A stretch of 64,000 nt of DNA from Bacteroidota bacterium (GTDB taxonomy: Bacteria; Bacteroidota; Bacteroidia; M30B66): the NCBI GenBank assembly GCA_027483445.1, contig JAIXUS010000013.1, positions 53,936 to 117,935 of the forward strand. Direction: 5' to 3'. Position numbers and translations under genes: made by a program. Shown in pieces: positions 226 through 26,810 of this stretch (its first letter is position 1; every line of letters starts with the position of its first letter). The notes beneath the pieces were generated by a model. That model had not been told where the DNA came from, ran no database searches, and saw only the letters and a program-made list of their open reading frames with translations.

Positions 226-2298
226 ATGATGTTTAAATGCTCAAGAATACTTAAGATTTCGGTTTTTTGTTTGCTGTGTGCGTGGAGTTCGCTAAGCAGC
301 CTTGGTCAAAGCACCTTGAATTTGCCCACAGGCTTTGTGAAATTCAGCGCCGATGAGGTCATCAATAAACAACCCGGATTAACCAGCGGCATAAGCTCAT
401 TTTATGGAGCGCCGGGTGGTTTTATATCTGAAGATGAACTGATTGAAAAAGAACGCCAAATAAAAGCAAACAACGAACGTGTTGCCGATAGTTTGAATGC
501 CATCAAAAAACAAATCCTCGCACTGTCGCAAAAGCGCAGCGAGTTTACTTTGTTGAGAGATGTAAATAAACTCGATGAGCTCATCGCCGCCAAGAAGAGT
601 CAATTGGCAGCTGCTCGCAGCGACTTTCAGGCGGCTTTATTGAAAACCAGTTTGCAGGGAGTTTACGTGAGTGTTTTAAAATTTCCTTCAGGTCTTATCA
701 AAGAAAACGAGTTTCAAGGCCAGATACGCAGTAAGGTAGCCACGGTTGCCATCACCGACATCAATGGAATATACGTCAGCAGCATTACTGAGGTTCAAAA
801 TCAACAACTGATCAAAGACTGGATATCTACCACAAAAAGCGGAAAATACAAGGAAGTTGCCCCGGTTTATTTTAAGGATATTCAAGAAGGATATTATATC
901 GTGGTAAGTAAAGCCGAGGTGAGTCCTTTGCTAAGGGAAGACGGTGACAATAAAAATACTTCTACAGGCAATGGAGTTTTATACCCCATCAAAGTCTATA
1001 ATCCGGAAAATCAAACAGATTACCTGAATACCTTGAAAAACGAATATAACTTAGATACTGCCGATTTATCGGGCATTAAAAATAAAGTGGAAGAATATCT
1101 TAAGGCGGTCATAAAAAACAATAACACTGTGCAGACAGATTTAGCTGGCATCGAGCAAAAGCAAAATGCAGTCCTGAAAATTGCGGAGGCAGAGCTTGAA
1201 GAAGCGATGCAGAAAAAAAAGCAACGCATCAACACAGTTGAAAAGGCATTGTTGGAGTTTGGTGTAACCAACAAAGGGGATATTTTATTAAATATTGATG
1301 CCCTAACATCCGCAATGACTGCACGAATAAAAAGCCATGGAAGTAGACTTGTGTATTGGAAAGAACAGGAAGTAACTACAGTGGGTCCTCAGTTGGTAAG
1401 TGGGCAGGGCGATTACGATGTGGTAATTAGAGATGCAGCCATATTGTACGCCCAAAACCAGATAGAGGGAGCAAAGGTTGAGGAGGATTTTTATGAGGTT
1501 CGGGAAGTTGATCTTGGTAAGCTGGTTGGGCAAATCACCACACGCCAGATAAAAGCGATCCGCCAACCCAGGGAAGTTTTTCTCTATGCAAGCGCCAAGA
1601 GAATTGGCTACAAATTGCTGGTGGCGGTTCGTTATAAGGTAAAGGAAGGGGAGGTCCCAGTAAATTCTATATCACCGCCAAACCTAAAGAAAAGTGAGTG
1701 CCCCAGTGTAATTAAAGACATTGATGGCAACACGTATAAAACAGTGCAAATCGGCAACCAATGCTGGATGGCAGAGAATCTAAAAACAGAACATTATAAC
1801 GATGGCTCATTGATACCTAATATTATGGAGGATGAGAAGTGGAGAAATTTAGAAAGTGGGGCATGGTGCCACAAGGATAACGATGCTTCCTATGATAAAA
1901 ACTATGGTAAATTATACAATTATTATACAGTAAGTGATCCTCGAAAGCTTTGCCCTGCAGGGTGGCATGTGCCGAATGTTAATGAATGGGCAGAACTAAC
2001 AAATTATCTTGGAGGAGAAAAGTTCGATGGTATTAAGATGAAAAGCACTTTTGGTTGGAAAGATAATGGTAACGGAACCAATAATTCAGGATTCAATGGA
2101 CTTCCGGGCGGTATACGTTACTTAGGCATTTTCAAAGGCGGCTTTTCCAGCACTGGAGAACAAAGCTCATGGTGGTGCGATACAGAAACCGTTGATAAAC
2201 TTGTCTGGTCTCGTAACCTGTACTTTCTATCTGGAACTGCAGGCTGGAGTGATATCGCTAAGGAAAATGGTCTTTCAGTCCGTTGCCTTAGGGATTAA
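226..2298 (+). CDS. Secreted paralog 1: signal peptide, FlgT_N/LPP20-like module, coiled coil, C-terminal FISUMP (Fib_succ_major) domain
   Basis: 690 aa ORF; hydrophobic N-terminus; 'GIYVSSITEVQNQQLIKDWI..GKYKEV..GYYIVVSKAEVSPL' module; C-terminal 'IKDIDGNTYKTVQIGNQCWMAENLKTEHYNDG...LCPAGWHVPNVNEW..GFSVRCLRD' is typical FISUMP. Confidence 0.85.
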   Translation: MMFKCSRILKISVFCLLCAWSSLSSLGQSTLNLPTGFVKFSADEVINKQPGLTSGISSFYGAPGGFISEDELIEKERQIKANNERVADSLNAIKKQILALSQKRSEFTLLRDVNKLDELIAAKKSQLAAARSDFQAALLKTSLQGVYVSVLKFPSGLIKENEFQGQIRSKVATVAITDINGIYVSSITEVQNQQLIKDWISTTKSGKYKEVAPVYFKDIQEGYYIVVSKAEVSPLLREDGDNKNTSTGNGVLYPIKVYNPENQTDYLNTLKNEYNLDTADLSGIKNKVEEYLKAVIKNNNTVQTDLAGIEQKQNAVLKIAEAELEEAMQKKKQRINTVEKALLEFGVTNKGDILLNIDALTSAMTARIKSHGSRLVYWKEQEVTTVGPQLVSGQGDYDVVIRDAAILYAQNQIEGAKVEEDFYEVREVDLGKLVGQITTRQIKAIRQPREVFLYASAKRIGYKLLVAVRYKVKEGEVPVNSISPPNLKKSECPSVIKDIDGNTYKTVQIGNQCWMAENLKTEHYNDGSLIPNIMEDEKWRNLESGAWCHKDNDASYDKNYGKLYNYYTVSDPRKLCPAGWHVPNVNEWAELTNYLGGEKFDGIKMKSTFGWKDNGNGTNNSGFNGLPGGIRYLGIFKGGFSSTGEQSSWWCDTETVDKLVWSRNLYFLSGTAGWSDIAKENGLSVRCLRD

Positions 2299-2382
2299 GG
2301 TTTAGTTAATTTGATTTATTTGGTTATTCAAATAGCCACCACCGCGAGGCCATGCGAAATGGTAATAAGAACAAAACAAGTC

Positions 2383-4788
2383 ATGAATTTTTCTCTCTTC
2401 AAACTCCTCTTTCTAAGCCTACTTGCCAATTGTTTTCTGGTTTTTTTGCAACCAATTCAGGCCCAAAAACCTTGCCTGCCGAACAGCCCTCTGGTGATAG
2501 AGGCAGGACAAATGGAGGTAAGTACCCTTGCTGCCGAAATACGGTCGAAAAAAGCTCGTTTTACCGCAGTTGACATTGCCGGATTAAACCTTTCGGTTGC
2601 TACCTGCAATAGCGAGGTTGAAAAACGCATCTCCACCCTGCGCAATGGCTTGTTGCGCTACTCCACCCAACGGCAGGATTTATATGGCCTACGCGATGCA
2701 GAAGGCATCCGTAAGCAAATTGAAGAAAAAAAGAAGGCTCAGGAAGATATCCGTTCTCAAATGCTTCTCGACCTACAGGGCATTCAAATTCAAGGCTTGT
2801 ACATCGTGTATGCCGATAACGTAGATGCCTTTAGCGATAGCAAAGAATCGCTTATGAAACAAAGCGATGCCTGGATGGCTCCCAAGGTAATCGAAGAACA
2901 AAATGGTATTTTCCTGGAAAGTGCAACCATTGTAAAAGATGCACAGTTGGTGTATGATTATATCCGTACACAGGTTTCAGGCGAACTTACGGTAGCGCCG
3001 CAAAAAACATCCATCAACCCCGAAGCGGCGCATTTTGTGAACCTCACCCTCACTACAGTATCGGCATTGCGAAGGATGCCCGACATGCAAACTTCACAAA
3101 ACAAATCCACAGCGCGAAATTATCGGCTAATCAATGTGCTGCAAAGCAGCGATTTTGCTTCACAATTGCGCAGCTGGGGAGTGAGCGAAACGGTTATTGC
3201 CGATATGAACAAGCTGGTAGAACTCAAGAAAGAAAGCATCCTACAACAGAATCAATTGCAGTTAGAGCGTCAGCAACGCATCATGCGCGAAGGCCAAATG
3301 CGCATTCAACAAGCCGAAGCCGAAATAACCCAATTGGAAACCAGCCTCAAAGAGCGCGATGCAAGGGTGCTGACCTTCCTCAAAAAAAATCCCGATGTAA
3401 CGGTAGAATCCACAGGCAATACCGATGAGCAGATCAAAAAAATACTCGGCTTGCTCGACAGCCGTATTCAAAATACGATGCAAGAAATTAACCGCGAAAA
3501 GGAGCAGGAGTTAATTGCCAAAATGCAGGTAAAAGTACCCTTTGAGGGCAATGCGGCCGAAGACATAGCCCGCAAAGCCATGGATGTTTACGAACAACTC
3601 AAAAGCGCCTACGGAAAGGTGGAGAATTATTATGAGCAGGTGGAAGTCGAAAATGGCATCCTGAAAGGACAAGAGCAGCGCAAAAGCCGCGATTTATACC
3701 GCACTCCCGATAAGATTTGGCTCTATCCGGTGCCGCTTCCCGACGATGAATACACCTTGTCGATGGTTATATCATTTAATATTATTGAAAAGAAGGAAGA
3801 ACCTAAGCCGGTTCAAAATACGAGTACGCAGCAAAGTGCCAATGCAAACACGCTAATAGCCTCCAATGGCTTACAAATAGACCCGAGCTGGCCCGCTCCA
3901 ATACAGGACTTGGTGAGGGATATGGTGAAGATACCGGCAGGGAAGTTTAAAATAGGCAGTAGAGTAGATGAAATTGGGAGAGATACAGATGAAGGACCAC
4001 TCACTGAAATTACCCTAAACAGTTTTTACATGGGTAAATATGAAGTAACATTATCTCAGTTTATTGAGTTTGTTAGTGCAACTGGTTATAAAACAGATGC
4101 AGAAAAAAAAGAAAGTAAAGTTAATTACTTATTCGATGTCAATGGCAATAGAAGGTCCAAAGTAGAATATAACCATCCAGTATCGTATGTAAGTTGGCAT
4201 GATGCAGAGGCCTTTACCCGATGGGTAAGTGAATTCACGGGCATTTCACTTAAACTACCGAGCGAATCACAATGGGAGTATGCCTGCAGAGCGGGAAGCA
4301 CAACACCGTTTAATACTGGCGATTGCCTGAGCAGCAACGAGGCTAATTACGATGGGAATTATCCTTACCAACAATGTGCAAAAGGTAATTACAAGCAATC
4401 AAACACGCCGGTAGGCAGTTATAAGGCCAACGCCTGGGGTTTATACGATATGCATGGCAATTTAAGCGAATGGTGTCTGGACGTTTATCACTATTCTTAT
4501 AGTGGTATACCGCTAAATGGTAATCCTTGGGTAGGAGCTGAAGAATCGACACATATTAAAAGAGGAGGCAATTCGAATTATTATGCTGAAAACTGTCGTT
4601 CAGCATACCGTGGCAACTTTATTCATATCAGCAAACACCTAAACGATGATTCCAATAACGGCTTTCGACTTGTGCACAGCACCCCAAATACGATACCCAA
4701 CGCCCCTATTAAACCTGTTGAGAAGCCCCAAGCACCATCCAATTCCGGAAAAAGCAAAGGCAAACTCAAACAACCCCGATACTTCTAG
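2383..4788 (+). CDS. Secreted paralog 2: FlgT_N/LPP20-like module, coiled coil and SUMF1/FGE-sulfatase-like (C-type-lectin-fold) domain
   Basis: ORF 2311..4788; likely start at 2383 (MNFSLFKLLFLSLLANC signal peptide); 'MVKIPAGKFKIGSRVDE...LPSESQWEYACRAGSTTPFNTGD...GLYDMHGNLSEWCLD...RSAYRG..NNGFRLV'. Confidence 0.85.
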   Translation: MNFSLFKLLFLSLLANCFLVFLQPIQAQKPCLPNSPLVIEAGQMEVSTLAAEIRSKKARFTAVDIAGLNLSVATCNSEVEKRISTLRNGLLRYSTQRQDLYGLRDAEGIRKQIEEKKKAQEDIRSQMLLDLQGIQIQGLYIVYADNVDAFSDSKESLMKQSDAWMAPKVIEEQNGIFLESATIVKDAQLVYDYIRTQVSGELTVAPQKTSINPEAAHFVNLTLTTVSALRRMPDMQTSQNKSTARNYRLINVLQSSDFASQLRSWGVSETVIADMNKLVELKKESILQQNQLQLERQQRIMREGQMRIQQAEAEITQLETSLKERDARVLTFLKKNPDVTVESTGNTDEQIKKILGLLDSRIQNTMQEINREKEQELIAKMQVKVPFEGNAAEDIARKAMDVYEQLKSAYGKVENYYEQVEVENGILKGQEQRKSRDLYRTPDKIWLYPVPLPDDEYTLSMVISFNIIEKKEEPKPVQNTSTQQSANANTLIASNGLQIDPSWPAPIQDLVRDMVKIPAGKFKIGSRVDEIGRDTDEGPLTEITLNSFYMGKYEVTLSQFIEFVSATGYKTDAEKKESKVNYLFDVNGNRRSKVEYNHPVSYVSWHDAEAFTRWVSEFTGISLKLPSESQWEYACRAGSTTPFNTGDCLSSNEANYDGNYPYQQCAKGNYKQSNTPVGSYKANAWGLYDMHGNLSEWCLDVYHYSYSGIPLNGNPWVGAEESTHIKRGGNSNYYAENCRSAYRGNFIHISKHLNDDSNNGFRLVHSTPNTIPNAPIKPVEKPQAPSNSGKSKGKLKQPRYF

Positions 4789-4845
4789 TTTAATTTAAGC
4801 AACGCTTATTTTTGTAACCAGAAAAATCATCAAATCCCCTGTATT

Positions 4846-7272
4846 GTGAATGTAACTTGTAGAGTTTATTCTTTTTTGCTACTTTTCTTCATGCTGATTG
4901 GGCTTGCTTTTCCCATCGTAGCCGATGCCCAGCAAAATTGCAGCATTACAAATCCCATGGTGTTGGATGCCACCCAGGTAAACGCTGCGAGCATTGCATC
5001 TGCCATCAAGCAGCACAACCGAAGGTTTACCAAGGCCGAAATTGATCAATTAAAACTACAATTGACTCAATGCAATAGTAACATGAACAGTAATATCTCG
5101 GAGTTAAAGAGCAAACTGGTTGATGTTTCTGAGTTGCACAAAAGCTTCCTGCCTTTTCGCGATGTGGAAGGTGTTAAAAAACAAATAGAAGAAAAAAGAA
5201 AAGCACTCATTGAAACTGAAAAAGCCATTTTCCGCGATCTGGAAAACATCACCCTCCAAAGCCTTTATATTGTTTATATGGATCGGGTTGACATCCTAAA
5301 TGGCCAAGTAGAAGATTGGACCAGGGAACTTAACGAATACATGAGTCCACAGGTTATTGGCGATATCAATGGGGTCTTTATTGAAAGTACCACCATTGTG
5401 AAAGATGCTGCTTTATTGCAAGACCACATTAAAAAGCAGGTTAGCGGCGAACTCACTGCCTCTTCAATGAACACAGTGGTTGATGCCGAAAAGGAGTTTT
5501 TTGTCAATTTCTCGCGTGTAATAGTATCTCCTTTGAAAAAAGAAAAAAACACACTGGATCAACGCCAAGCAAGCAATTCGAATCGAACTTATAAAATCAT
5601 TAATCCATTGAATGAAAGTAGTTGGCAATTGAGTTTAAGAAACCTTCAGATACCCGAAAATAAAATAAACGACTTCGCAAATCAGGTAGAAGCGTTTCAA
5701 AAGGAGATTACCCTCGAAAACGAACGGCAGCTGAAACTTCAGCGTAATTTACTTGAAAAGGGCAAACAACAGATCAAGTTGTTAGAGCAGGAAATACGCT
5801 CCTTGGAGGATGGGCTGCGAAGCCGCGATGTCAGGGTGGATGATTTTATGAGACAATATCCCAATCTCAATTATCACAAAGGAAATACCGACGCCAACGT
5901 GCGGTTAATCCTGAGCCATTTAGATAAGGAGCGCAGCGCAACTTTAGAAGCAATTCGCAAGGAGAAAGAGAAGGAGTATGTAATGAAATCCGACATTCTC
6001 GTTCAAATTCAAGGCGATACACGCGAAGCATTAGCCCAGCAAGCTATGTTTGTGCTCAGTCAAATTCGAAAAAACGAAACCGTAATACAGGATTTCTACG
6101 AAAAAAATGAAATACAGGATGGCAAGCTCACTGAACAGGAAAGACTTGAGGCTCGCCGGCTTTACCGCGATCCGGATAAAATTTGGATTTTCCCTTCTCC
6201 CGGGCAAGGCGATCAGTATAAACTCGCGCTTGTAGTTACCTTTAAAGTACGTAGCGGGCCCTCGACCGGTCAATCCGTTACCGTTCAGCCAAATCTATCG
6301 AGCAGCAACAACACTCCCCAAACCACAGGCACATCCGCACAAACTTCACCTGGTGCAGGAAGTAAGCCACCAGTTGAGGCTCCAATAAGTGACAATAGGC
6401 AAGTATTGCCTAATGGCTTAACCCTCGACCCCACCTGGCCTACGCCTATTCAGGAGCTGGTGCGCAATATGGTTAAAATACCAGCAGGTAAGTTTGTAAT
6501 GGGCAGCCCAACCACCGAAAGCAAAAGAGAATCTAACGAAGGTCCACAGCAGGAGATAAGTCTTGCAGGCTTTTACATGAATAAGTATGAGGTTACTGTG
6601 GCTCAGTTTAGGGCGTTTGTAGAGAAAATAAATTATCAAACCGACGCAGAAAAAATCGGTAGCTCCTATTTTTGGAAAGAAAAAGAGGGTAAGTGGCAAT
6701 GGGTTGAAGAAAAAGGCATCAACTGGCGCCATGATGCTCAGGGTAATTTTCAGGTGAATAAAGACGACCCAGTAATTCATGTCAGCTGGAACGATGCGCA
6801 GGCGTTCATTCAGTGGCTGAATAAATTAACCAACTACTCATTCCAATTGCCGAGCGAGGCGCAATGGGAATATGTCTGCCGCGCAGGTACCACAACACCC
6901 TTCAACACTGGCGATTGCTTAAGCACCACCGACGCCAATTACGATGGCAACTATCCATACGAGGGTTGTTCAAAGGGCACTTATCTGCAAAGCACGAACA
7001 AAGTAGGTTCATATAAAGCCAATGCCTGGGGCTTGTACGATATGCATGGTAATGTAAGGGAATGGTGTCAGGACTGGTATCATGATTCGTACACGGGCAT
7101 CCCGACCGATGGTAAGGCTTGGGAAAGCCCTACCGGGAGCAACCGCGTGCTGCGCGGCGGCGGCTGGTTCAACTTCGCGCAGTACTGCCGCTCAGCCAAC
7201 CGCGGCTACAACGCGCCCGACTACCGTTCTTACGGCGCCGGCTTTCGCCTCCTTAGTTCAGGAACACCATAA
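4846..7272 (+). CDS. Secreted paralog 3: FlgT_N/LPP20-like module, coiled coil and FGE-like domain; candidate DGR variable protein
   Basis: 808 aa; signal peptide; 'MVKIPAGKFVMGSPTTESKRESNEGP...YDMHGNVREWCQDWYHDSYTG...RVLRGGGWFNFAQYCRSANRGYNAPDYRSYGAGFRLLSSGTP'. Confidence 0.9.
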   Translation: MNVTCRVYSFLLLFFMLIGLAFPIVADAQQNCSITNPMVLDATQVNAASIASAIKQHNRRFTKAEIDQLKLQLTQCNSNMNSNISELKSKLVDVSELHKSFLPFRDVEGVKKQIEEKRKALIETEKAIFRDLENITLQSLYIVYMDRVDILNGQVEDWTRELNEYMSPQVIGDINGVFIESTTIVKDAALLQDHIKKQVSGELTASSMNTVVDAEKEFFVNFSRVIVSPLKKEKNTLDQRQASNSNRTYKIINPLNESSWQLSLRNLQIPENKINDFANQVEAFQKEITLENERQLKLQRNLLEKGKQQIKLLEQEIRSLEDGLRSRDVRVDDFMRQYPNLNYHKGNTDANVRLILSHLDKERSATLEAIRKEKEKEYVMKSDILVQIQGDTREALAQQAMFVLSQIRKNETVIQDFYEKNEIQDGKLTEQERLEARRLYRDPDKIWIFPSPGQGDQYKLALVVTFKVRSGPSTGQSVTVQPNLSSSNNTPQTTGTSAQTSPGAGSKPPVEAPISDNRQVLPNGLTLDPTWPTPIQELVRNMVKIPAGKFVMGSPTTESKRESNEGPQQEISLAGFYMNKYEVTVAQFRAFVEKINYQTDAEKIGSSYFWKEKEGKWQWVEEKGINWRHDAQGNFQVNKDDPVIHVSWNDAQAFIQWLNKLTNYSFQLPSEAQWEYVCRAGTTTPFNTGDCLSTTDANYDGNYPYEGCSKGTYLQSTNKVGSYKANAWGLYDMHGNVREWCQDWYHDSYTGIPTDGKAWESPTGSNRVLRGGGWFNFAQYCRSANRGYNAPDYRSYGAGFRLLSSGTP
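7142..7239 (+). repeat. Candidate DGR variable repeat core VR-1
   Basis: Ungapped alignment to 9664-9761: 24 of 98 positions differ by eye, versus about 8 of 237 in upstream flank 6883-7119 and 1 of 33 in downstream flank 7240-7272. Confidence 0.6.
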
Positions 7273-7316
7273 AAAGCCGAGCCTCCGGCCAAGGGGCAGC
7301 CGGGCCATAGGCCCAA

Positions 7317-7348
7317 GGCAAAGCCCCGGGCAAGGAGGCGAGGTAAAA
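7317..7348 (+). repeat. 32-bp conserved downstream element, copy 1
   Basis: GGCAAAGCCCCGGGCAAGGAGGCGAGGTAAAA. Confidence 0.85.
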
Positions 7349-7421
7349 AACCAAACCATCCGGCCGGAGGCCGGCTAAATTTTAAAATTACAAACCCGAA
7401 CCGTTACACTTCATTTTAACC

Positions 7422-9794
7422 ATGCTGTTTCCATTCACCAAAGTCTTTATCCAAAGAAAGCTTCAACTAAGTGCATGTCTGCTTTTGCTCCATTTTAGCT
7501 TGCAAGGGCAAAATAGCTCATGTAAGTTTTTCTTAAGCCCACTGGAGTTTAATGCCGACAGTGTATTGGGGAAAAACAGCGTCGCACATGTCGAAAAGGC
7601 TATTCATGCTGCTGCAGTTAAAAAGTTGCGAATCAACTTTACCGAAGACACCATTCAAGCGTATGTAAAAACCTGGGAAGCCTGTAATCAAGAAATAAGT
7701 GAAAAGCTCTTGCAAATTCAGAAACAACGCGATCTTATTTCACAAGCACAGCAAAAACTTACCGACAATGATAAAATTGGATCGTTGCAAAAAAAGCTTG
7801 TTGAGTTGCAGGATGCGAAGGTTCAGTTAGCAAAACAAACTGGAGAAAATTTGCAGGCAATCAGGTTTCAGGCGATTTATGTTATAGTAATTAAAAATGT
7901 AGATGACCTAACCAGCACCCGTGAGGTAATGGAGGAACAGGTTTCAGCAGCCCTAAGAAATACTGCTATAAAGGATTTGCGAGGAGTATTTGTTCAATCA
8001 AAAACGACGGTTGGCAATCACCAGCTTTTAGATGATTGGATAAGGCTTGAAAGCAGCGGAGAACTGAGGCGCGAAGGACAGAATATATTGGAGGATTTTA
8101 ACTCTATCCAACACTATTACATCAATTGTTCTCAGTTGGTAGTGGCCCCGCTTAAGAGTGATTCATCGCTCCGCAAAGCAACTACGGCCAGTACAATTGG
8201 GCAGGTCTTAACCCCCATAAACGTTTTAGCAACAGCCAATTGGAAAGAGGTTTTGAGAACTCATCAGGTTTCTGAAGAAGATATTCAAGCAATTGAAAGG
8301 GCTATTGCCACCAAACAATCAGGTATAGATAAGAATACGCAACTTAACGCCGATAAAGAGAAGGAAATAATACGTGAATTTGTGGCCAACAATGCCAAAT
8401 TGAATGATCAAATGCTTGCTGCCGAAAATGAACTTAAAAACATCTACCAATTTTTACAAACATTGGTTGGCAACCAGATTCAGGTGAATGCAAACAATGC
8501 CATTCAAATCTTAAAGAGCCAACGGGAGGCCTATAATAACCAAGCAAAAGAGAAAACCACCGAATACGAAGTGCTTGAAGCCAAAAAGTGGGTCTGGCAA
8601 CCGCTTGAGGAGTTGATTTATGATAACAATGCCAATAATGCAATAGCGAATAAAACGGTTGACTTGGTTGCGATAATCGCTGCCAATCTTACTAAAGAAG
8701 AATCGCAAAGTTCTAGTATTGAAGTATTTAATGGACAATTAATCCGTGATGAAAAAAAGGAAGGAAGAAGGAAAGTAAAAAAACTTGTTAAAGTATGGCT
8801 CTATTTAAGTCCAGGGGCTTCAAATAAGCGCAAAATTACCATCTTAAGCAGTTTTGAGTGGGATTTACAGCAAGAAAGCACTACTCCCAAGCCCGTCGTG
8901 CCTAAACCTGTTGCCAATGAGGGGGATAAACTAAACAACGAAAAAAAAGAGGAACCATCAATTAAGCCGAATGAACGAATCAATAAATTGATTGAAGCTA
9001 AACAGTCCTTTCTTATCGATACCCTTTGGCCCAAATCTATTCAAGAACTTGTAAAAAGCATGGTTAGAATACCCGGTGGTGAATTTCTAATTGGCTGTGA
9101 ATCGGGCAATGCTCAGGATTGTGACGCTGATGGAAAAGAGTATGTTAAAATAAAGTTAGCGCCATTTTTCATGAGCAAGTATGAAATTACTCAACAACAG
9201 TGGTATGATTTGGTGAAGAACACTCCGAAAGAGAATAAAGAATTAAATCCTGTTCCCTCATCTAACAGAGAAAAAAAGTTGTGGAACAACCCTGTTACCG
9301 ATGTTTCGTGGGAGGATTGTCAGGAATTCATTGCCCGGCTCAATAAGTTAACCAAGCTGAATTTCCAATTGCCCAGTGAGGCGCAATGGGAGTATGCGTG
9401 CCGTGCAGGTACCACAACACCCTTCAACACGGGCGCATGCTTAAGCACTACCGACGCCAATTACGATGGCAACTATCCATACGAGGGTTGTTCAAAGGGC
9501 ACTTATCTGCAAGGCACGAACAAAGTAGGTTCATATAAAGCCAATGCCTGGGGCTTGTACGATATGCATGGTAACGTTTGGGAATGGTGTCAGGACTGGT
9601 ATCATGATTCGTACACGGGCATCCCGACCGATGGTAAGGCTAGGGAAAGCCCAACCGGGAGCATCCGCGTGCTGCGCGGCGGCAGCTGGAACGACGGCGC
9701 GCAGGGCTGCCGCTCAGCCGACCGCGGCAGCATCACGCCCGATGCCCGTCACTTCAGCTTCGGCTTTCGCCTCCTCAGTTCAGGAACACCATAA
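7422..9794 (+). CDS. Secreted paralog 4: FlgT_N/LPP20-like module, coiled coil and FGE-like domain; candidate DGR variable protein
   Basis: 790 aa; signal peptide; C-terminus near-identical to paralog 3 except hypervariable core 'RVLRGGSWNDGAQGCRSADRGSITPDARHFSFGFRLLSSGTP'. Confidence 0.9.
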   Translation: MLFPFTKVFIQRKLQLSACLLLLHFSLQGQNSSCKFFLSPLEFNADSVLGKNSVAHVEKAIHAAAVKKLRINFTEDTIQAYVKTWEACNQEISEKLLQIQKQRDLISQAQQKLTDNDKIGSLQKKLVELQDAKVQLAKQTGENLQAIRFQAIYVIVIKNVDDLTSTREVMEEQVSAALRNTAIKDLRGVFVQSKTTVGNHQLLDDWIRLESSGELRREGQNILEDFNSIQHYYINCSQLVVAPLKSDSSLRKATTASTIGQVLTPINVLATANWKEVLRTHQVSEEDIQAIERAIATKQSGIDKNTQLNADKEKEIIREFVANNAKLNDQMLAAENELKNIYQFLQTLVGNQIQVNANNAIQILKSQREAYNNQAKEKTTEYEVLEAKKWVWQPLEELIYDNNANNAIANKTVDLVAIIAANLTKEESQSSSIEVFNGQLIRDEKKEGRRKVKKLVKVWLYLSPGASNKRKITILSSFEWDLQQESTTPKPVVPKPVANEGDKLNNEKKEEPSIKPNERINKLIEAKQSFLIDTLWPKSIQELVKSMVRIPGGEFLIGCESGNAQDCDADGKEYVKIKLAPFFMSKYEITQQQWYDLVKNTPKENKELNPVPSSNREKKLWNNPVTDVSWEDCQEFIARLNKLTKLNFQLPSEAQWEYACRAGTTTPFNTGACLSTTDANYDGNYPYEGCSKGTYLQGTNKVGSYKANAWGLYDMHGNVWEWCQDWYHDSYTGIPTDGKARESPTGSIRVLRGGSWNDGAQGCRSADRGSITPDARHFSFGFRLLSSGTP
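9664..9761 (+). repeat. Candidate DGR variable repeat core VR-2
   Basis: Partner of 7142-7239 at constant offset 2522; no indels. Confidence 0.6.
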
Positions 9795-9796
9795 AA

Positions 9797-9828
9797 GGCA
9801 AAGCCCCTGGCAAGGAGGCGAGGTAAAA
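9797..9828 (+). repeat. 32-bp conserved downstream element, copy 2
   Basis: GGCAAAGCCCCTGGCAAGGAGGCGAGGTAAAA, immediately after the stop codon of paralog 4. Confidence 0.85.
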
Positions 9829-9854
9829 TCCAAGTATAGCCTAAGACAAAAAAC

Positions 9855-12851
9855 ATGAAAAAAACAAAGCGTATCGAAAAGCATTTACTTGATGAATTAA
9901 AGCAAGGTTTAATCGTCTTGCTGTTGATTTTGAACCCTTCTCATTACATGGCCCAAAGTAATTTGGCATTGCCCCCTGGTTATATCTCCTTTGAGGCGGG
10001 AAAAGTATTGGCTAAAAGTCAAGAAGTGGTCTCAAAAATTCAGTCTTCTGTAGAAAAGAATGACCTCACCTTTTTAACAGAAGCAAGACTTCGGGAATTA
10101 GAACGCCAATTAGAGGCCAGAAACAAAGTGGTTTATGATTCTGTAATTTCTAAAAAAAATCTATTGTTGGAGCTTTCCCAGAAACGCAGTGAATTCATAT
10201 TGCTTCAAGATGTGAGTAAAATTGATGAAATCATTAGAATACGAGAGGAAAACCTCAAAAATGCTCAAGCACAGTTTTTTCAAGCTTTATCCAATCAAAG
10301 TTTGCAAGGGGTGTATATTGGTATCAGACGTTTCTCTCCAGGGGTGTTTAGGCAAGCGGAATTTGAAAGCGACATTCGAAGCCAAATTTCGCCTTTAGCT
10401 GTAAAAGATATCGTTGGGGTGTATGTCAACAGTATTACTGAAGTTCACAACAAAAAGCTCATAAACGAAAAGATAAGTACAGAAAGTATGGGTAATTACG
10501 AACAGAATGCCCCATATTCAATTAAGAACAATGCAGCAGGCTATTACATCGAGGTAAGTAAGGCTATCGTAAGTCCATTGAAGAGTATTGTGAGCGGCAC
10601 CATAGATAGAAGTGCGAACCAAAGCAGTAACCAAGTGATGGTGTTTAACGCGCAAAATGCCGATTATGAGGCTTATTTAAAGAGCTTTCAACTGTCTGAA
10701 GCAGAAATGACTGAAATTACCACTAAGGTAAATGACTACTTAAACGATGTGGCTTCGCATAACAATAAGGTTAAAATTGATTTAGCGCAAATCGAAGCGC
10801 GGCAAAATAGCATCATTGCAAATGCGGAAAAAGAGTTGGAAGAGGCAAGGAAAGTTAAAGCCGAACGAACAACTCGTGTGAGAAAGGCATTGAGAGAATT
10901 CCGCTTAGCTGAGCAGCCCAATAATACTATGGCTGAAATAAGCAGCATAGTTTCGTTTTTGGCTGATAAAGAGAAAGTCCTCCAAAATGAAATTGTAATG
11001 TGGAAGGAAAAGGAGCTTACTAAATTCCTCACCCCGGAGATTAGTGTTCAGGGAGATTATGATCAGATTTTAGGTGATGGGATTATCACCTTTTCAAACA
11101 ATCAAATCGCAGGAGCGAAAGTAATTGAGAGCCTTTATGAATATAATGAAGTTGTAAAAGGTAAACTAACTGATTCGTTCGTAAAGATAAAAATTAATGC
11201 CTCTCGCACACCAGTAGAGGTTTATGCTTATTTTGCTAACACGGCTAATGGGTATAAGGTGTTGGTGGCAGTAAGATACAAGATATTGCCTGAGAACGGA
11301 TCAGAGAAAGATGATTTTGGAGATAGTGGACAAGCGAAAGATAACGAGTTGGAACCTCAAGAGGAAAATTTCGATGATTTAAGTTTATCCCATGCGGGTA
11401 GTGATAACATCTTCACACCAAGTGTTAATTGGCCTCAATCTATACAAGAACTTGTAAAAAGCATGATTTTTGTCAAAGGTGGTTATGTAAAATACGGATG
11501 TTTTTCAGGTAATGAATTTGAATGTAACTCAAAAGGTCTAAATTATTTCGATTTATATTTGACTGATTATCATTTAGGGCAATATGAAGTAACTCAGCAG
11601 CAGTGGTTTGATATAATGGGAACTACCCCTAGTTTAAAGAAAAATTGTCCAAACTGCCCTGTAACAAATATAAGTGAAAAGGAGATTTTTGATTTTATTC
11701 AAAAGTTAAATAAATTAACTGGTTGCGAGTTCAGATTGCCTAATTTTTTTGAATGGGAGTATGTATTGACTGAAAAATATACTTCCTTCCCGCCAATCAA
11801 AAAGTTCGAAAGGATTTATTTTATGGATGGATACAAATTGCAGCTAACAGAAAAGGAAAAATTAGATTTAGAATACTTATGGATGCGCGGCGGATTTAAA
11901 AACAGTATAATGGAATGGCCAAATAAACAGACTTTTATTGAACCTGTTAATTCACATGCTCCTAATAGATTGGGATTTTATAATATGTTCGGTAATGCTG
12001 CTGAATTTGTTGCAGCAAGTAAAGGTTTGAAAAACCACTTTGGTCGTTATGGCTACCTCGATATTGAAGAGAGAATGAAGTCTGGCCAAAATTATGATAA
12101 AAAGTATATACTCAATGTAATGATGGATAAAGAAAACCATGTGACCAACAGAAAGCAAAAGAACTTATTGCCCTTATTTTTTGGATTGGGTATGTATTGG
12201 CAAGAAACAAGAGGCAATATTGCTGGTTTCAATTATTATCCTAATGGTAATGGTACAGGATTTCGCCTAGTCCACTCAAATAAACTTTCAAATGGCGAAT
12301 TAATTTCTTTCAAAGAAGAAATTTCCGAAATAGATTATAATCGGATTATTGATCAATATTGTACTGTTAATAAATCTAAGTTTATCTTATTTATTGACTC
12401 AATAGAAAGACGAATCGAGCAAATTTCTATTGATCGTCAATTGAGTGAAGAAAGATTGGCAGAGGAAAAAAGAAGAAAAGAGGAGTTCGAAAAAATCTAT
12501 AAATGTATAATTTATAATTCTAATTTAACATATAATTATAATAATTATGAAAAAAAATTAGAAGTATATTTTACCTTTGATGTGCCTGATATTGTTAGCG
12601 AAATTAACTTTACAATGAGAATAAATTATTTAGACATAACTCTTTCTTCTGGCGAAGTTCAAAGATACAATATGTCTAATTTGTCAAATACAACTCAAGT
12701 GTTGAATGCAAGAAATTCAAAGGCTCGAATATCTTTTCCCTTAACAATTTCTGCATCTGAATCCTACTCCATTAGTTATATAAATTATAGCTTTTGGGCA
12801 TACGATCAGACAGATAGAAAAAACAATAGTATACCAGTTCTAGTTGAATAA
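9855..12851 (+). CDS. Secreted paralog 5: FlgT_N/LPP20-like module, coiled coil, divergent FGE-like domain and extra C-terminal region
   Basis: 998 aa; N-terminus most like paralog 1; divergent FGE-like motifs 'QYEVTQQQWFDIMG..LPNFFEWEYV..LGFYNMFGNAAEFV..NGTGFRLVHS'; ~190 aa C-terminal extension not seen in the other copies. Confidence 0.8.
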   Translation: MKKTKRIEKHLLDELKQGLIVLLLILNPSHYMAQSNLALPPGYISFEAGKVLAKSQEVVSKIQSSVEKNDLTFLTEARLRELERQLEARNKVVYDSVISKKNLLLELSQKRSEFILLQDVSKIDEIIRIREENLKNAQAQFFQALSNQSLQGVYIGIRRFSPGVFRQAEFESDIRSQISPLAVKDIVGVYVNSITEVHNKKLINEKISTESMGNYEQNAPYSIKNNAAGYYIEVSKAIVSPLKSIVSGTIDRSANQSSNQVMVFNAQNADYEAYLKSFQLSEAEMTEITTKVNDYLNDVASHNNKVKIDLAQIEARQNSIIANAEKELEEARKVKAERTTRVRKALREFRLAEQPNNTMAEISSIVSFLADKEKVLQNEIVMWKEKELTKFLTPEISVQGDYDQILGDGIITFSNNQIAGAKVIESLYEYNEVVKGKLTDSFVKIKINASRTPVEVYAYFANTANGYKVLVAVRYKILPENGSEKDDFGDSGQAKDNELEPQEENFDDLSLSHAGSDNIFTPSVNWPQSIQELVKSMIFVKGGYVKYGCFSGNEFECNSKGLNYFDLYLTDYHLGQYEVTQQQWFDIMGTTPSLKKNCPNCPVTNISEKEIFDFIQKLNKLTGCEFRLPNFFEWEYVLTEKYTSFPPIKKFERIYFMDGYKLQLTEKEKLDLEYLWMRGGFKNSIMEWPNKQTFIEPVNSHAPNRLGFYNMFGNAAEFVAASKGLKNHFGRYGYLDIEERMKSGQNYDKKYILNVMMDKENHVTNRKQKNLLPLFFGLGMYWQETRGNIAGFNYYPNGNGTGFRLVHSNKLSNGELISFKEEISEIDYNRIIDQYCTVNKSKFILFIDSIERRIEQISIDRQLSEERLAEEKRRKEEFEKIYKCIIYNSNLTYNYNNYEKKLEVYFTFDVPDIVSEINFTMRINYLDITLSSGEVQRYNMSNLSNTTQVLNARNSKARISFPLTISASESYSISYINYSFWAYDQTDRKNNSIPVLVE

Positions 12852-13014: not shown

Positions 13015-13484
13015 TCAATTGCTCCTGATCGTTAATTGGAGTGATGCAAAAGCCTTTGTACTTTGGATAAGTAATTACACCCACATTGATTTCGGATAAC
13101 CCAATAAACAACAATGGGAGTATGCCTGCCGTGTAGGTTCAACAACTCCTTTTCACACCGGTAATTGTCTTCATTCTGATGAAGAGAACTATGACGGAGA
13201 TATTCTACGTTATAATTGCTTGGCCGGGGAAATTACATGGTAATACGACCGAAGTAGGAAGTTACAAATCCAATAATTTTGGACTGCATGACATGCATGG
13301 GAATATCTCAGAATGGTGCATTGATTTTCCAAATACATACAATGACAAAACAGTCCCAACTCAGGGTGGCTATTGGCGCAGTTCCGCTTAGACATGTCGT
13401 TCAGATTATTCCGAACGAACTAATCCTGACCTTAGTATCAATGTAATTGGCTTTCGCATCTTCAGTTCAGGCACATTTCGCTAA
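13015..13484 (+). pseudogene. Decayed FGE-like domain remnant (sixth copy)
   Basis: Conceptual translation across frames: '[56 protein letters not shown]' then frame change to '[33 protein letters not shown]..' then in-frame TAG at 13389-13391 then 'TCRSDYSERTNPDLSINVIGFRIFSSGTFR*'. Confidence 0.8.
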
Positions 13485-13524
13485 TCTGCCTCTCAGGTCA
13501 AAGGGCTATCGGGCGTTAGTTCAA

Positions 13525-13556
13525 GGCAAAGCCCATGGCAAGGAGGCGAGGTAAAA
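13525..13556 (+). repeat. 32-bp conserved downstream element, copy 3
   Basis: GGCAAAGCCCATGGCAAGGAGGCGAGGTAAAA, downstream of the decayed FGE copy. Confidence 0.85.
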
Positions 13557-13932
13557 ACATGACCGCGCGGCGGCAGGCTGGGAAGTCATAGGTAGATATC
13601 CCTATAGTATTCCTTGCGAAATCAGCGAAACAACTTGTGAAACAGCTTTCTCCAATGGGTAACAAGTAGGCAATAAACAAAGGGCTGACAGCAGTTTTGC
13701 GAAAACCGCCAAATGTTTTTTTGTTTATGAATCAAGCGCAATAAATAAAACTGCTTTGCGTTTTGGGTGTATAGTTAAATATTTTAGTCTTCTTATCTTA
13801 CTTATCCCACATATCCATTATTTTAGTGCAAATACTGTATTTATGTTTATCAAAGAAAAAAAAGCTGTAAATCAGCCGTTTAATTCCCTAAATCCTCGTC
13901 CAGTCACTGGTTTTTTCACGAAAGCATCTTCA

Positions 13933-15351
13933 ATGTTAGGTGTGTTGCTTTTCCTGTTTGGAGGGGGATTCAGTCATGCTCTAAAGGCACAGAAAGCCGA
14001 TGTAGCCAAAGTAGCTGCCGAAATTCTGGTCAGTCTAGATCAGGCTCAGGCTATGCGCGAATTGGTGAGCCTCAAACAAACTATGGAATCGCGGGTAACT
14101 GAAGCCAAGAAAAATCAGCTCGCCAATCTCGATCCGGCGCAACTTCAAAATTTCAGCAACCAATACAATGCTGTGGCACTCAGCTTTAACGAACTGCTTC
14201 AAGCCCTCAAACAGGATGTTTTGAGTTTTGGTCGGAAACCTGATTTAAATGCATTGTCGAAAAAGTATCAAACGAAAATTGACAACTTACGCACATCGGT
14301 TGATACATTCACTCAAATCAATCTGAATGGCATAGCCAAAGACATGCTTGGCAACCCTCCAATCGATTGGGGCCAAATAATAGGCATTGTCATTAGTGCG
14401 GTTCCATCCATTATTCAATCTATACAGAAGAATAAGAAACTAAACCAAGGCGATTTAGTTGGTGCAATAAATGCCCTTACTCCAGATTTCTTGCAGAAAT
14501 ACAAAATGTTGGGTTTCGAGGCAATCTGGCCTGAGGCCGAAGCATTTCTACGAAAACAATCATCAGGTAACTCAACTACTGAGAGGGTAGCTCCAAGTTT
14601 GCTGCCTTCTGTTGGCAACGCCAAGGTGAATGTATTGGTGTCTGAACCCTATGTCTTAGAACCACTCAAAGGAGATTTTCGCTTTACCGATCGCCTACCT
14701 GATGGCTCTGAAGTTGAAATTCCTATGACGATTCAGCAGGAAACGAAATCACAAACGATTCTTACCTCTGCCCCGGTAGTTATTGGAGATACTTATCGCC
14801 TGCAGCTTAGTTCAAAACAACCGTTTGTATATGTATTTAGCCGCCAAATGGCTACGGGTAATTATACTCTACATTTCCCCAAAATGGCTTCCGTTAATCC
14901 GGTAAGTCCAGCTGTAGCTCCAGGGAATCCCAAACCGAGCATAAGTGATTCAATGAACATGCGTACTAAACGTCAAATGCTAGAACTGACAAAAGACATT
15001 GATTCCAAAGATAAAAATGCGGTAATCATCAAGGATATCATCGAGAGATCGAAAGCAGATTATTATGTGTACCAATCAGCGCCAGCCGACAACCCAATCA
15101 CATTCACCTGGAGTGTTGACGATAAACCGGGTGATGAACAAATGATTATTCTTTTTTCGAATTCTGAAATCTTTTTCCCTGTGGAGTTTTTGCGTAGATA
15201 CTTGCAATTGCCTTCGGGAAATACCTCCGGGAAAGTGCTTCCAAGCCTTGCTTTTGGCCAGGATTTCGTAGCCAATGAAGGCAGCAAAAACCAGGATACC
15301 TTGGATAAACTCCTCAAGGCCTATATCATTTCAATTCCTAAAACCCGATAA
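13933..15351 (+). CDS. Secreted protein of unknown function, upstream partner of caspase-like gene
   Basis: ORF 13756..15351; likely start 13933 (MLGVLLFLFGGGFSHALKAQ signal peptide); helical N-terminus; only 19 nt separate it from the downstream start at 15371. Confidence 0.65.
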   Translation: MLGVLLFLFGGGFSHALKAQKADVAKVAAEILVSLDQAQAMRELVSLKQTMESRVTEAKKNQLANLDPAQLQNFSNQYNAVALSFNELLQALKQDVLSFGRKPDLNALSKKYQTKIDNLRTSVDTFTQINLNGIAKDMLGNPPIDWGQIIGIVISAVPSIIQSIQKNKKLNQGDLVGAINALTPDFLQKYKMLGFEAIWPEAEAFLRKQSSGNSTTERVAPSLLPSVGNAKVNVLVSEPYVLEPLKGDFRFTDRLPDGSEVEIPMTIQQETKSQTILTSAPVVIGDTYRLQLSSKQPFVYVFSRQMATGNYTLHFPKMASVNPVSPAVAPGNPKPSISDSMNMRTKRQMLELTKDIDSKDKNAVIIKDIIERSKADYYVYQSAPADNPITFTWSVDDKPGDEQMIILFSNSEIFFPVEFLRRYLQLPSGNTSGKVLPSLAFGQDFVANEGSKNQDTLDKLLKAYIISIPKTR

Positions 15352-15370
15352 TCACTTAACATCAAATTGT

Positions 15371-17107
15371 ATGAAGCGTTTCATTGTTAGTTTTTTCATT
15401 GTTTTTTTTAGCACCAGTGTGTTTGGCCAATTGGTTAAAGACATCACAATGGATCTCGAAGGTAAACCTTTTGAAGTAATCCGCACCAATGATCCCTTTC
15501 CATCAACCTTGTTTAACGAACGACGGTTAGCACTGGTTGTGGGTATAAGTAATTACCAATACATTACCAACTTGCCGAATTGTGGCAATGATGCTGATGC
15601 CATGACCACGAAAATGAACGAGATGGGGTACGATGTGATTCGTGATAAAAGCAACCCGACAAAAGCACAATTGCAAAATATATTCAGAAATGCATTAAAC
15701 TACTTCGTTCAGGGCAGATACAATTCATTTTTGTTTTACTACTCGGGGCACGGTACAGAGCTTGGCAGCATGAATGTAATTGTTCCGTCCGATTTCAAAT
15801 TCGACCGTTCCTGGTCGAGTGCCCAGCGCATCGAGGCTATCACCAACCAGGGTCTCCGGTTGGGTGAACTCATGCAACCCTTTATTAACCAAGCCGGTAA
15901 TAAATATTCCATTGCCATTTTAGATGCTTGTCGGAATATCAAGTATGAAACAGAGGGGAATCCCATTGCCGACTTGGATGCTGGAATTTTTAACAATAAA
16001 CCGGTAACACGCATTTTTTCGACCGCTTTGGGTGATGTGGCATACAATGAGCATCCCGAAGATACACGCATAAGCTATTTTACGTACTACTTGCTACGCG
16101 CTTTCAACAAGCAGGCAAAATCTCCTTGTGATATTCCCTCTTTAAAGAAGCAACTTTCCGAAATGATGAGAAAGCAGGATAAACAGATTCCCCATATTAC
16201 TGAGTCATCAAATATCAATTATGCTTTTCAGTTTTTTGATTGTAGCGGTAAAAATGATTTTGTGCAGTCTTTAGGTACAAATGGAATCCTCAATGTAAGT
16301 CGCGCTAAATTGGTCGCTGATGGAGAAGGATTTGTTAATCAAAAACACGTGGAAGAAGATAAAGGAGACAAAACTCGAGCACTTAGTCTTGCTAAAACAG
16401 CTGCGGAGGTTGTGGCCCTGCGAAATTTAGTTCTAGCTGCCGAAAGTTATGTTTCAAGTATTACTAAAGTAGTTGATGGGAAAACAGAACGAGTAATTGA
16501 TACGCGAATAATTGAAGCAAGAATAAGGCAAGCACAGAGAGTTGGAGATTATAAAGTAGAAGGTAATTCGGTTAAAGTCACCATGGAGGTAGACGAGGCA
16601 AATGTTATCAGTCTGCTGAAGGAAACTGACTCGGGCTTTAACAGTAAAATATACAACCGTTTTAACGAGAACTTTGATTTAGGTGCAACAGAGCAAGCCA
16701 GAATGATTGTGGATTCCATTATCCCTGTTCGGGAGCTTAAACCCAAAGTAGAGTTTCAAGTAGATGCCAATGACGCTAACCGCTTGTATCGCCCGGGCCA
16801 AAAGCAGAAGATTCATGTAGTGGATGAAGACGGTTCATTATTGTGGACAAATTACACCGACAAAGTCAATGAAAAAGATACCCCCTTGGGTGAGATGCTA
16901 TCTTTAGCAATTGAAGCAGGTAAAGCATCTGAACTTGCCAATTTAAATAAGGTGCAGGTTTTAGAAGATGGTACCTTGGTGATAAACATCAAAGACCTGC
17001 TGGGTGAGCAGCAATATAAAAAGTTGAAAGGAGGAGGCAAACTGCTCAAAGCCTTGCCCTATCTAATTCAGCTTATTGATATTGGAGTAAAGGTGGCCAA
17101 AAGATAA
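15371..17107 (+). CDS. Secreted caspase-family (peptidase C14) protein
   Basis: Start 15371 (MKRFIVSFFIVFFSTSVFGQ); 'RRLALVVGISNYQYITNLPNCGNDADAM', His motif 'FYYSGHG', Cys motif 'ILDACR'. Confidence 0.88.
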   Translation: MKRFIVSFFIVFFSTSVFGQLVKDITMDLEGKPFEVIRTNDPFPSTLFNERRLALVVGISNYQYITNLPNCGNDADAMTTKMNEMGYDVIRDKSNPTKAQLQNIFRNALNYFVQGRYNSFLFYYSGHGTELGSMNVIVPSDFKFDRSWSSAQRIEAITNQGLRLGELMQPFINQAGNKYSIAILDACRNIKYETEGNPIADLDAGIFNNKPVTRIFSTALGDVAYNEHPEDTRISYFTYYLLRAFNKQAKSPCDIPSLKKQLSEMMRKQDKQIPHITESSNINYAFQFFDCSGKNDFVQSLGTNGILNVSRAKLVADGEGFVNQKHVEEDKGDKTRALSLAKTAAEVVALRNLVLAAESYVSSITKVVDGKTERVIDTRIIEARIRQAQRVGDYKVEGNSVKVTMEVDEANVISLLKETDSGFNSKIYNRFNENFDLGATEQARMIVDSIIPVRELKPKVEFQVDANDANRLYRPGQKQKIHVVDEDGSLLWTNYTDKVNEKDTPLGEMLSLAIEAGKASELANLNKVQVLEDGTLVINIKDLLGEQQYKKLKGGGKLLKALPYLIQLIDIGVKVAKR

Positions 17108-26562: not shown

Positions 26563-26810
26563 CGAGGCATGCGCCCTCATGATCACAACAAGGACGAGGA
26601 TTTAACACGACAAACTCAAATGTTCACACAAATCCCACTAAAGACTCCAGACCCAAGACTCATTACTCCCTTCGAGGCATGCGCTCACATAATCACAATA
26701 AGGCTGCGGATTCAACGCGACAAACTCAAATGTTCATACAAATCCCACTAAAGACTCCAGACCCAAGCCTCACTACGCCCATCAAGGCAGGCGCCCACAA
26801 AAACTCAAAC
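26563..26810. repeat. 110-bp tandem repeat, about 2.2 copies
   Basis: Units start at 26563, 26673 and 26783 (partial); shared 'CAAACTCAAATGTTCAYACAAATCCCACTAAAGACTCCAGACCCAAG'. Confidence 0.85.

Follow-up and report, generated by a model that had tools for sequence, protein, structure and literature searches.

The locus examined here raises a simple question, namely why two neighbouring genes that have diverged over most of their length should end in almost the same DNA and still differ at a quarter of the positions in one short core. The two genes lie on the forward strand of the window (the whole 64,000-nucleotide stretch that was analysed). Target gene 1 (4846-7272) encodes 808 amino acids, with an N-domain followed by a C-terminal FGE-sulfatase/C-type-lectin-fold domain (residues 540-803) and a hydrophobic N-terminus that by eye resembles a signal peptide, and target gene 2 (7422-9794) encodes 790 amino acids in the same architecture (FGE domain at residues 545-785). 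Their N-domains are only about 21% identical, but the last 400-450 bases of the genes share about 95% DNA identity outside the core. Inside these ends lie the two candidate variable repeats, VR1 (7140-7251, forward strand, hypervariable core 7142-7239) and VR2 (9662-9773, forward strand, core 9664-9761), and upstream of VR1 is the shared part of the 3′ module (6790-7141, forward strand; partner 9312-9663), in which identity rises through about 6790-6880. As the diverged N-domains and the nearly identical ends do not match, the VR-bearing 3′ module was, judging from the alignments, probably exchanged recently and is thus common to two otherwise diverged genes. We put a probability of roughly 0.87 on the two cores being variable repeats of one diversity-generating retroelement (DGR), the core components of which, the reverse transcriptase (RT) and the template, have been lost or were not assembled.

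The two gene ends align without gaps at a constant offset of 2522, and the difference counts given in the initial annotation were recomputed exactly: 8 of 237 bases in the flank (6883-7119), 24 of 98 in the core, and one of 33 in the tail up to the stop codon (7240-7272). The short stretch 7120-7141 differs at 2 of 22 bases. The homologous block is longer than was described there, since identity already climbs from about 6790 and a common 36-base 3′ element follows the genes. When the 41 differences of 6841-7272 were placed at random, at least 24 of them fell in any 98-base stretch in just 1 of 20,000 placements. The changes were said to sit mainly at codon positions 1 and 2, as is indeed the case (12, 10 and 2 at positions 1, 2 and 3). 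Among the 33 core codons there are 15 non-synonymous differences and one synonymous one, against four and five in the 86 flank codons, so that the NG86 estimates are dN 0.37 and dS 0.09 (dN/dS about 4) for the core, and dN 0.022 and dS 0.109 (dN/dS 0.2) for the flank. The dS values are similar across core, flank and tail, and the counts are too low for a date to be put on the last homing event. The cores are also rich in GC (69% and 73%, compared to 45% for the window). It was further proposed that the changed codon pairs can be reached from AAC; this does not hold for every pair in the core, as GCG/ACG requires a template ACG, and in GAC/GAT and TCT/CAC the third base has changed too, either from a template A at that place (GAA or AAA, for example) or through ordinary later C/T changes.

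Such figures could also arise with no DGR ever involved, had the 3′ end lately been duplicated or copied by gene conversion and the FGE loop then come under strong diversifying selection. FGE domains are naturally variable in this loop and have the RGG-W...GFR scaffold in common, and no RT was found in the assembly. We nevertheless regard this course of events as improbable, since selection does not account for a skeleton in which 25 of 26 codons are NNC, for the locally raised GC (69-73%), or for the restriction of non-synonymous change to the A positions of independent templates, and since FGE genes of genomes that yielded no DGR show none of these features.

The independent templates came from a scan of 85,462 species genomes with a degenerate pattern built on the invariant bases. 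The scan found 17 stretches, several of which are templates (L069, L071, L075, L079 and L074). In L069 (Eisenbacteria) and L071 (Bacteroides UBA939) the N-rich template adjoins a DGR RT; the genome of L075 (Fermentibacteria) also has a DGR RT, and L074 belongs to a same-class relative, G010, which carries its RT on another contig. The L069, L071, L075 and L074 templates align without gaps to both VRs, and the variable positions face a template A at 20/23 (L069), 19/23 (L071), 20/23 (L075), 17/23 (L074) and 15/23 (L079). Since the invariant bases in the first half were already set by the search pattern, only the second half of the repeat, tested alone, gives unbiased statistics; the p values there are 2e-4 for L069, 1e-4 for L071, 4e-5 for L075 and 1e-3 for G010, and only 0.06 for L079. 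The 24th variable position (7142) belongs to an AAC codon, for which the G010 template likewise has AAC, and the third-position differences at 7221 and 7230 face a non-A base in every proxy template.

In VR1 and VR2, about 65% of the proxy-template adenines have been replaced, and all three other bases occur as replacements. This can be compared with a bona fide pair of template repeat (TR) and VR in G010, in which 18 of 28 template adenines are changed (64%) and only one non-A position differs in addition to these 18. G010 has a DGR RT of 335 amino acids, 52% identical to that of L071, as well as template/VR pairs. Measured against external templates only, the substitutions in the present repeats thus appear confined to template adenines. 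Real templates, such as that of L071 with RGGSWNNNAQNCRSANRNNNTPGNRNNNLGFR, encode almost exactly the template peptide predicted in the initial annotation.

The codon usage of the repeats is equally distinctive. At the 13 codons that read AAC or AAT in the templates, the form NNC is found 12 times in VR1 and 13 times in VR2, which corresponds to binomial p values of 3e-6 and 1e-8 on an NNC background in genes of 0.25-0.28. FGE genes taken from genomes that yielded no DGR reach only 3-7 of 13, including 4/13 for an FGE gene on contig C47 of the same genome (L016); a G036 protein with the array N-domain (L103) likewise gives 4/13. In genomes that do have a DGR RT, on the other hand, most of the VRs and templates show an NNC skeleton like that of VR1 and VR2. 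The controls L064, L089, L090 and L092 were retrieved by way of the RT and not with the pattern; in L064 two VRs and one template give 10/13 each and a third VR-like end 6/13, and the VR/template pair of L092 gives 10/13 each. The skeleton is the strongest argument against ordinary diversifying selection, and it looks AAC-derived and stop-avoiding, as in DGR targets.

From the observed substitution pattern, its agreement with genuine templates, the NNC codons and the fold described below, the following course may be proposed. The lineage would have used a DGR with a template of roughly the form CGCGTGCTGCGCGGCGGC(AGC)TGG-AAC-AAC-AAC-GCGCAG-AAC-TGCCGCTCAGCC-AAC-CGCGGC-AAC-AAC-ACG-CCC-GAN-AAC-CGT-NNN-(AAC)n-GGCTTTCGCCTC. 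An RNA copy of this template would be reverse-transcribed with random bases placed at A, and the cDNA would take the place of the 3′ ends in two paralogues whose proteins, probably secreted, end in C-type-lectin (FGE-like) domains, altering the ligand-binding face and keeping the scaffold codons.

The predicted structure fits such a role. The AlphaFold model of the VR1 domain (pLDDT 84, pTM 0.88) has formylglycine-generating enzymes as its best matches among solved structures (TM 0.83) and also matches Treponema TvpA (PDB 2y3c; E 4e-14, TM 0.68), in agreement with the FGE-like C-type-lectin domain with a variable C-terminus that had been annotated initially. The VR ends about 20 bases before the stop codon and so lies at the C-terminus of a domain with a predicted C-type-lectin fold, as in known DGR targets. 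The first catalytic FGE cysteine (human C336) aligns with a variable Asn/Asp position in the targets, which makes FGE catalysis by these domains unlikely, as far as the alignment tells; they may rather serve as binding scaffolds, with the variable ends probably contacting a ligand.

The two targets belong to an array of five paralogues (226-12851) with a common N-terminal domain and a C-terminal Fib_succ_major or FGE-sulfatase domain. The first member (226-2298, forward strand) combines the array N-domain with a Fib_succ_major domain, which is another domain reported among DGR targets. The second (2311-4788, forward strand) has an FGE domain whose RGG..GFR segment does not align gaplessly with the VRs and has no NNC skeleton, and we read this segment as older or non-DGR. 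In the last (9855-12851, forward strand), the FGE domain is diverged and partial. A sixth copy (about 13040-13487, forward strand) is a degraded FGE paralogue with stops and frame breaks, and it retains the 3′ tail of the target genes. The N-termini of the array proteins resemble signal peptides by eye, and proteins with T9SS sorting tails are present in the window; these tails, and the fact that the closest relative with similar repeats is a MAG of the class Bacteroidia, indicate Bacteroidota. Elsewhere in the window, a tandem pair of 110-base direct repeats, 87% identical, occupies 26563-26782.

The sequences downstream of the repeats were also inspected. The 36-base element occurs after target gene 1 (7314-7349, forward strand), after target gene 2 and VR2 (9794-9829, forward strand), and after the pseudogene (13522-13557); outside these three array copies, the genome gives no strong match to it. 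The element contains AGGAGGCG, the reverse complement of the CGCCTCCT that stands in the repeat tail (at 7246 and 9768), and an 8-bp inverted repeat therefore joins each VR tail to the downstream element; within the window, these 8-mers are found only at the VR tails and the downstream elements. Just 3′ of target gene 1 is a long GC-rich hairpin (7275-7376, forward strand; z = -5.25 against shuffles), which is shortened after the second target gene. In the phage BPP-1, a hairpin downstream of the VR, with a 7-10 bp stem and a 4-nt loop, is needed (PMC3240598). A canonical 7-10 bp stem with a 4-nt GRNA loop was not recognised downstream of the VRs, so the long hairpin and the inverted repeat are only suggestive of a DGR-type downstream structure.

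If the repeats belong to a DGR, its core should be sought in the same genome, and the initial annotation had expected a template and a DGR RT there. Neither was found in the assembly (4.26 Mb in 87 contigs, rated 100% complete). No RVT_1 domain was detected in it, with control searches giving matches, and the G010 and L071 DGR RTs as queries gave no match in this genome and strong matches in DGR-bearing genomes. Half-repeat patterns with up to three mismatches match only VR1 and VR2 in the genome and revealed no RT or template fragment at contig edges, and blastn found no third full copy of the repeat. The blastn matches on contigs C34 and C40 are weak (16-20 bp), with no FGE or repeat-like gene in the C34 stretch, and were rejected as a third copy. 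The Avd accessory protein is common in DGRs, if not universal; no plausible DGR Avd gene was found in the genome, and three four-helix-bundle genes (TIGR02436) were rejected because they lie in unrelated contexts with no RT or template. On contig C39 (L125, G000:C39:1-7000), a Fib_succ_major gene (229-2782) has an Avd-like four-helix-bundle gene just upstream, 229 bases from the contig end; mixed third bases at its end are the reason for not calling it VR-bearing. Among the four same-genus genomes searched, none has a DGR RT, and the one RT found there, in G003 (L062, G003:C105), resembles retron RTs. A weak RT match in G008 (L094) was judged spurious, its neighbours being translation genes. 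Searches of phage and plasmid records returned only FGE relatives below 60% identity.

Of the two findings that had been named as speaking against a DGR, the absence of an RT and template is thus what the assembly gave, and a spread of changes over non-A positions is not what the repeats show. The variable-repeat reading is upheld by the A-facing positions and the NNC signature, and the proposed search for RT and template was negative in the assembly; the designation as DGR target genes holds, but does not extend to a functioning DGR in the genome. It is very improbable that the gene ends are an assembly or binning artefact derived from a DGR-bearing relative, for the array is embedded in a 118-kb contig where paralogues are intact and the flanks continuous, even if the contamination estimate is 2.4%.

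There remain two ways in which DGR targets could stand without a core, which we consider about equally likely because in the comparison genomes it is frequently a short contig or a contig end that carries the DGR core. To the first, loss, we would give nearly even odds: a lineage that once had a DGR, or received the 3′ modules from one that did, would have lost RT and template, leaving frozen repeats that evolve ordinarily. The missing RT and template under working controls, the lack of a DGR RT in the four same-genus genomes searched, the pseudogene state of the third copy, and the two third-position differences and one tail difference, which could be post-homing drift, all favour loss, and there are precedents in T. 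denticola isolates (PMC4891356) and in degenerate loci of Thiohalocapsa (PMC10907252). Both target genes are intact, however, with no clear ordinary decay of the core, and an 87-contig assembly can miss a repeat-rich cassette. A complete DGR acting in trans from an unassembled or unbinned contig, plasmid or phage falls somewhat short of even odds. RT and template contigs are often short elsewhere (3.7 kb for L071, 5.6 kb for L069 and 5.8 kb for L075), the RTs of G102 begin at base 1 of contigs C115 and C40, the RT and one template of G010 are on different contigs, and a Sumerlaeota genome (G106) with three matching stretches has no RT match either. Non-assembly must be set against the completeness rating of 100% and against the contig edges, at none of which the half-repeat patterns detected an RT or template fragment.

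Close downstream of the array is a caspase-like gene (Peptidase_C14; 15275-17107, forward strand), and in the array and its surroundings PADLOC recognises no more than the caspase domain. Paralogues that look exported and have exchangeable C-lectin-type ends, followed by a caspase gene, could form a sensor/effector neighbourhood. A more far-reaching version, which we hold to be unlikely, is that both targets are still being diversified by an RT and template that a mobile or unbinned element supplies in trans; the exported lectin-fold array beside the caspase gene would then be a variable sensor set dependent on a visiting retroelement.

Surveys of DGRs usually begin with the reverse transcriptase, and targets whose RT is absent or unassembled are therefore missed. 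The pair described here shows that such targets can be recognised from two paralogues alone, by core-only non-synonymous change, the NNC skeleton and a local rise in GC, which templates of distant bacteria then confirm. A nearly identical 3′ VR module on N-domains so little alike is what a swapping of VR ends between genes would be expected to leave.

Earlier work has described targets of the FGE type, C-lectin folds with a VR at the C-terminus and the combination of VR ends with other domains (PMC8144416), and DGR-linked FGE domains also occur in proposed conflict systems (PMC7159879), although the caspase gene here is only a neighbour. Orphan or incomplete DGR targets, too, are already described in Treponema denticola and Thiohalocapsa. 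T. denticola isolates lacking RT or TR retain VR-bearing targets (PMC4891356), and TvpA and its orphan relatives share with the present proteins an FGE-type C-lectin domain, a C-terminal VR, A-directed variability and the occurrence, in some strains, of targets with no RT or template; they differ in belonging to another phylum, whereas here two adjacent targets with an unrelated N-domain stand in a paralogue array. Thiohalocapsa PB-PSB1 likewise has FGE/C-lectin-ended targets at loci with no RT or TR, for which diversification is best explained by activity in trans (PMC10907252), but it carries intact RTs elsewhere in its genome. Ordinary FGE, SUMF1 and GldK/PorK-like proteins share the fold and the conserved scaffold residues; however, they have no NNC skeleton, and the C336 position is variable (N or D) in the window targets. 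Another close counterpart is G010 (MAG Bacteroidia bacterium Co_bin.136; RT on contig C60, template/VR pairs on C51 and C60), which encodes a nearly identical template peptide and FGE-type targets but, unlike the present assembly, possesses both RT and templates, and whose targets do not carry the N-domain of the window proteins.
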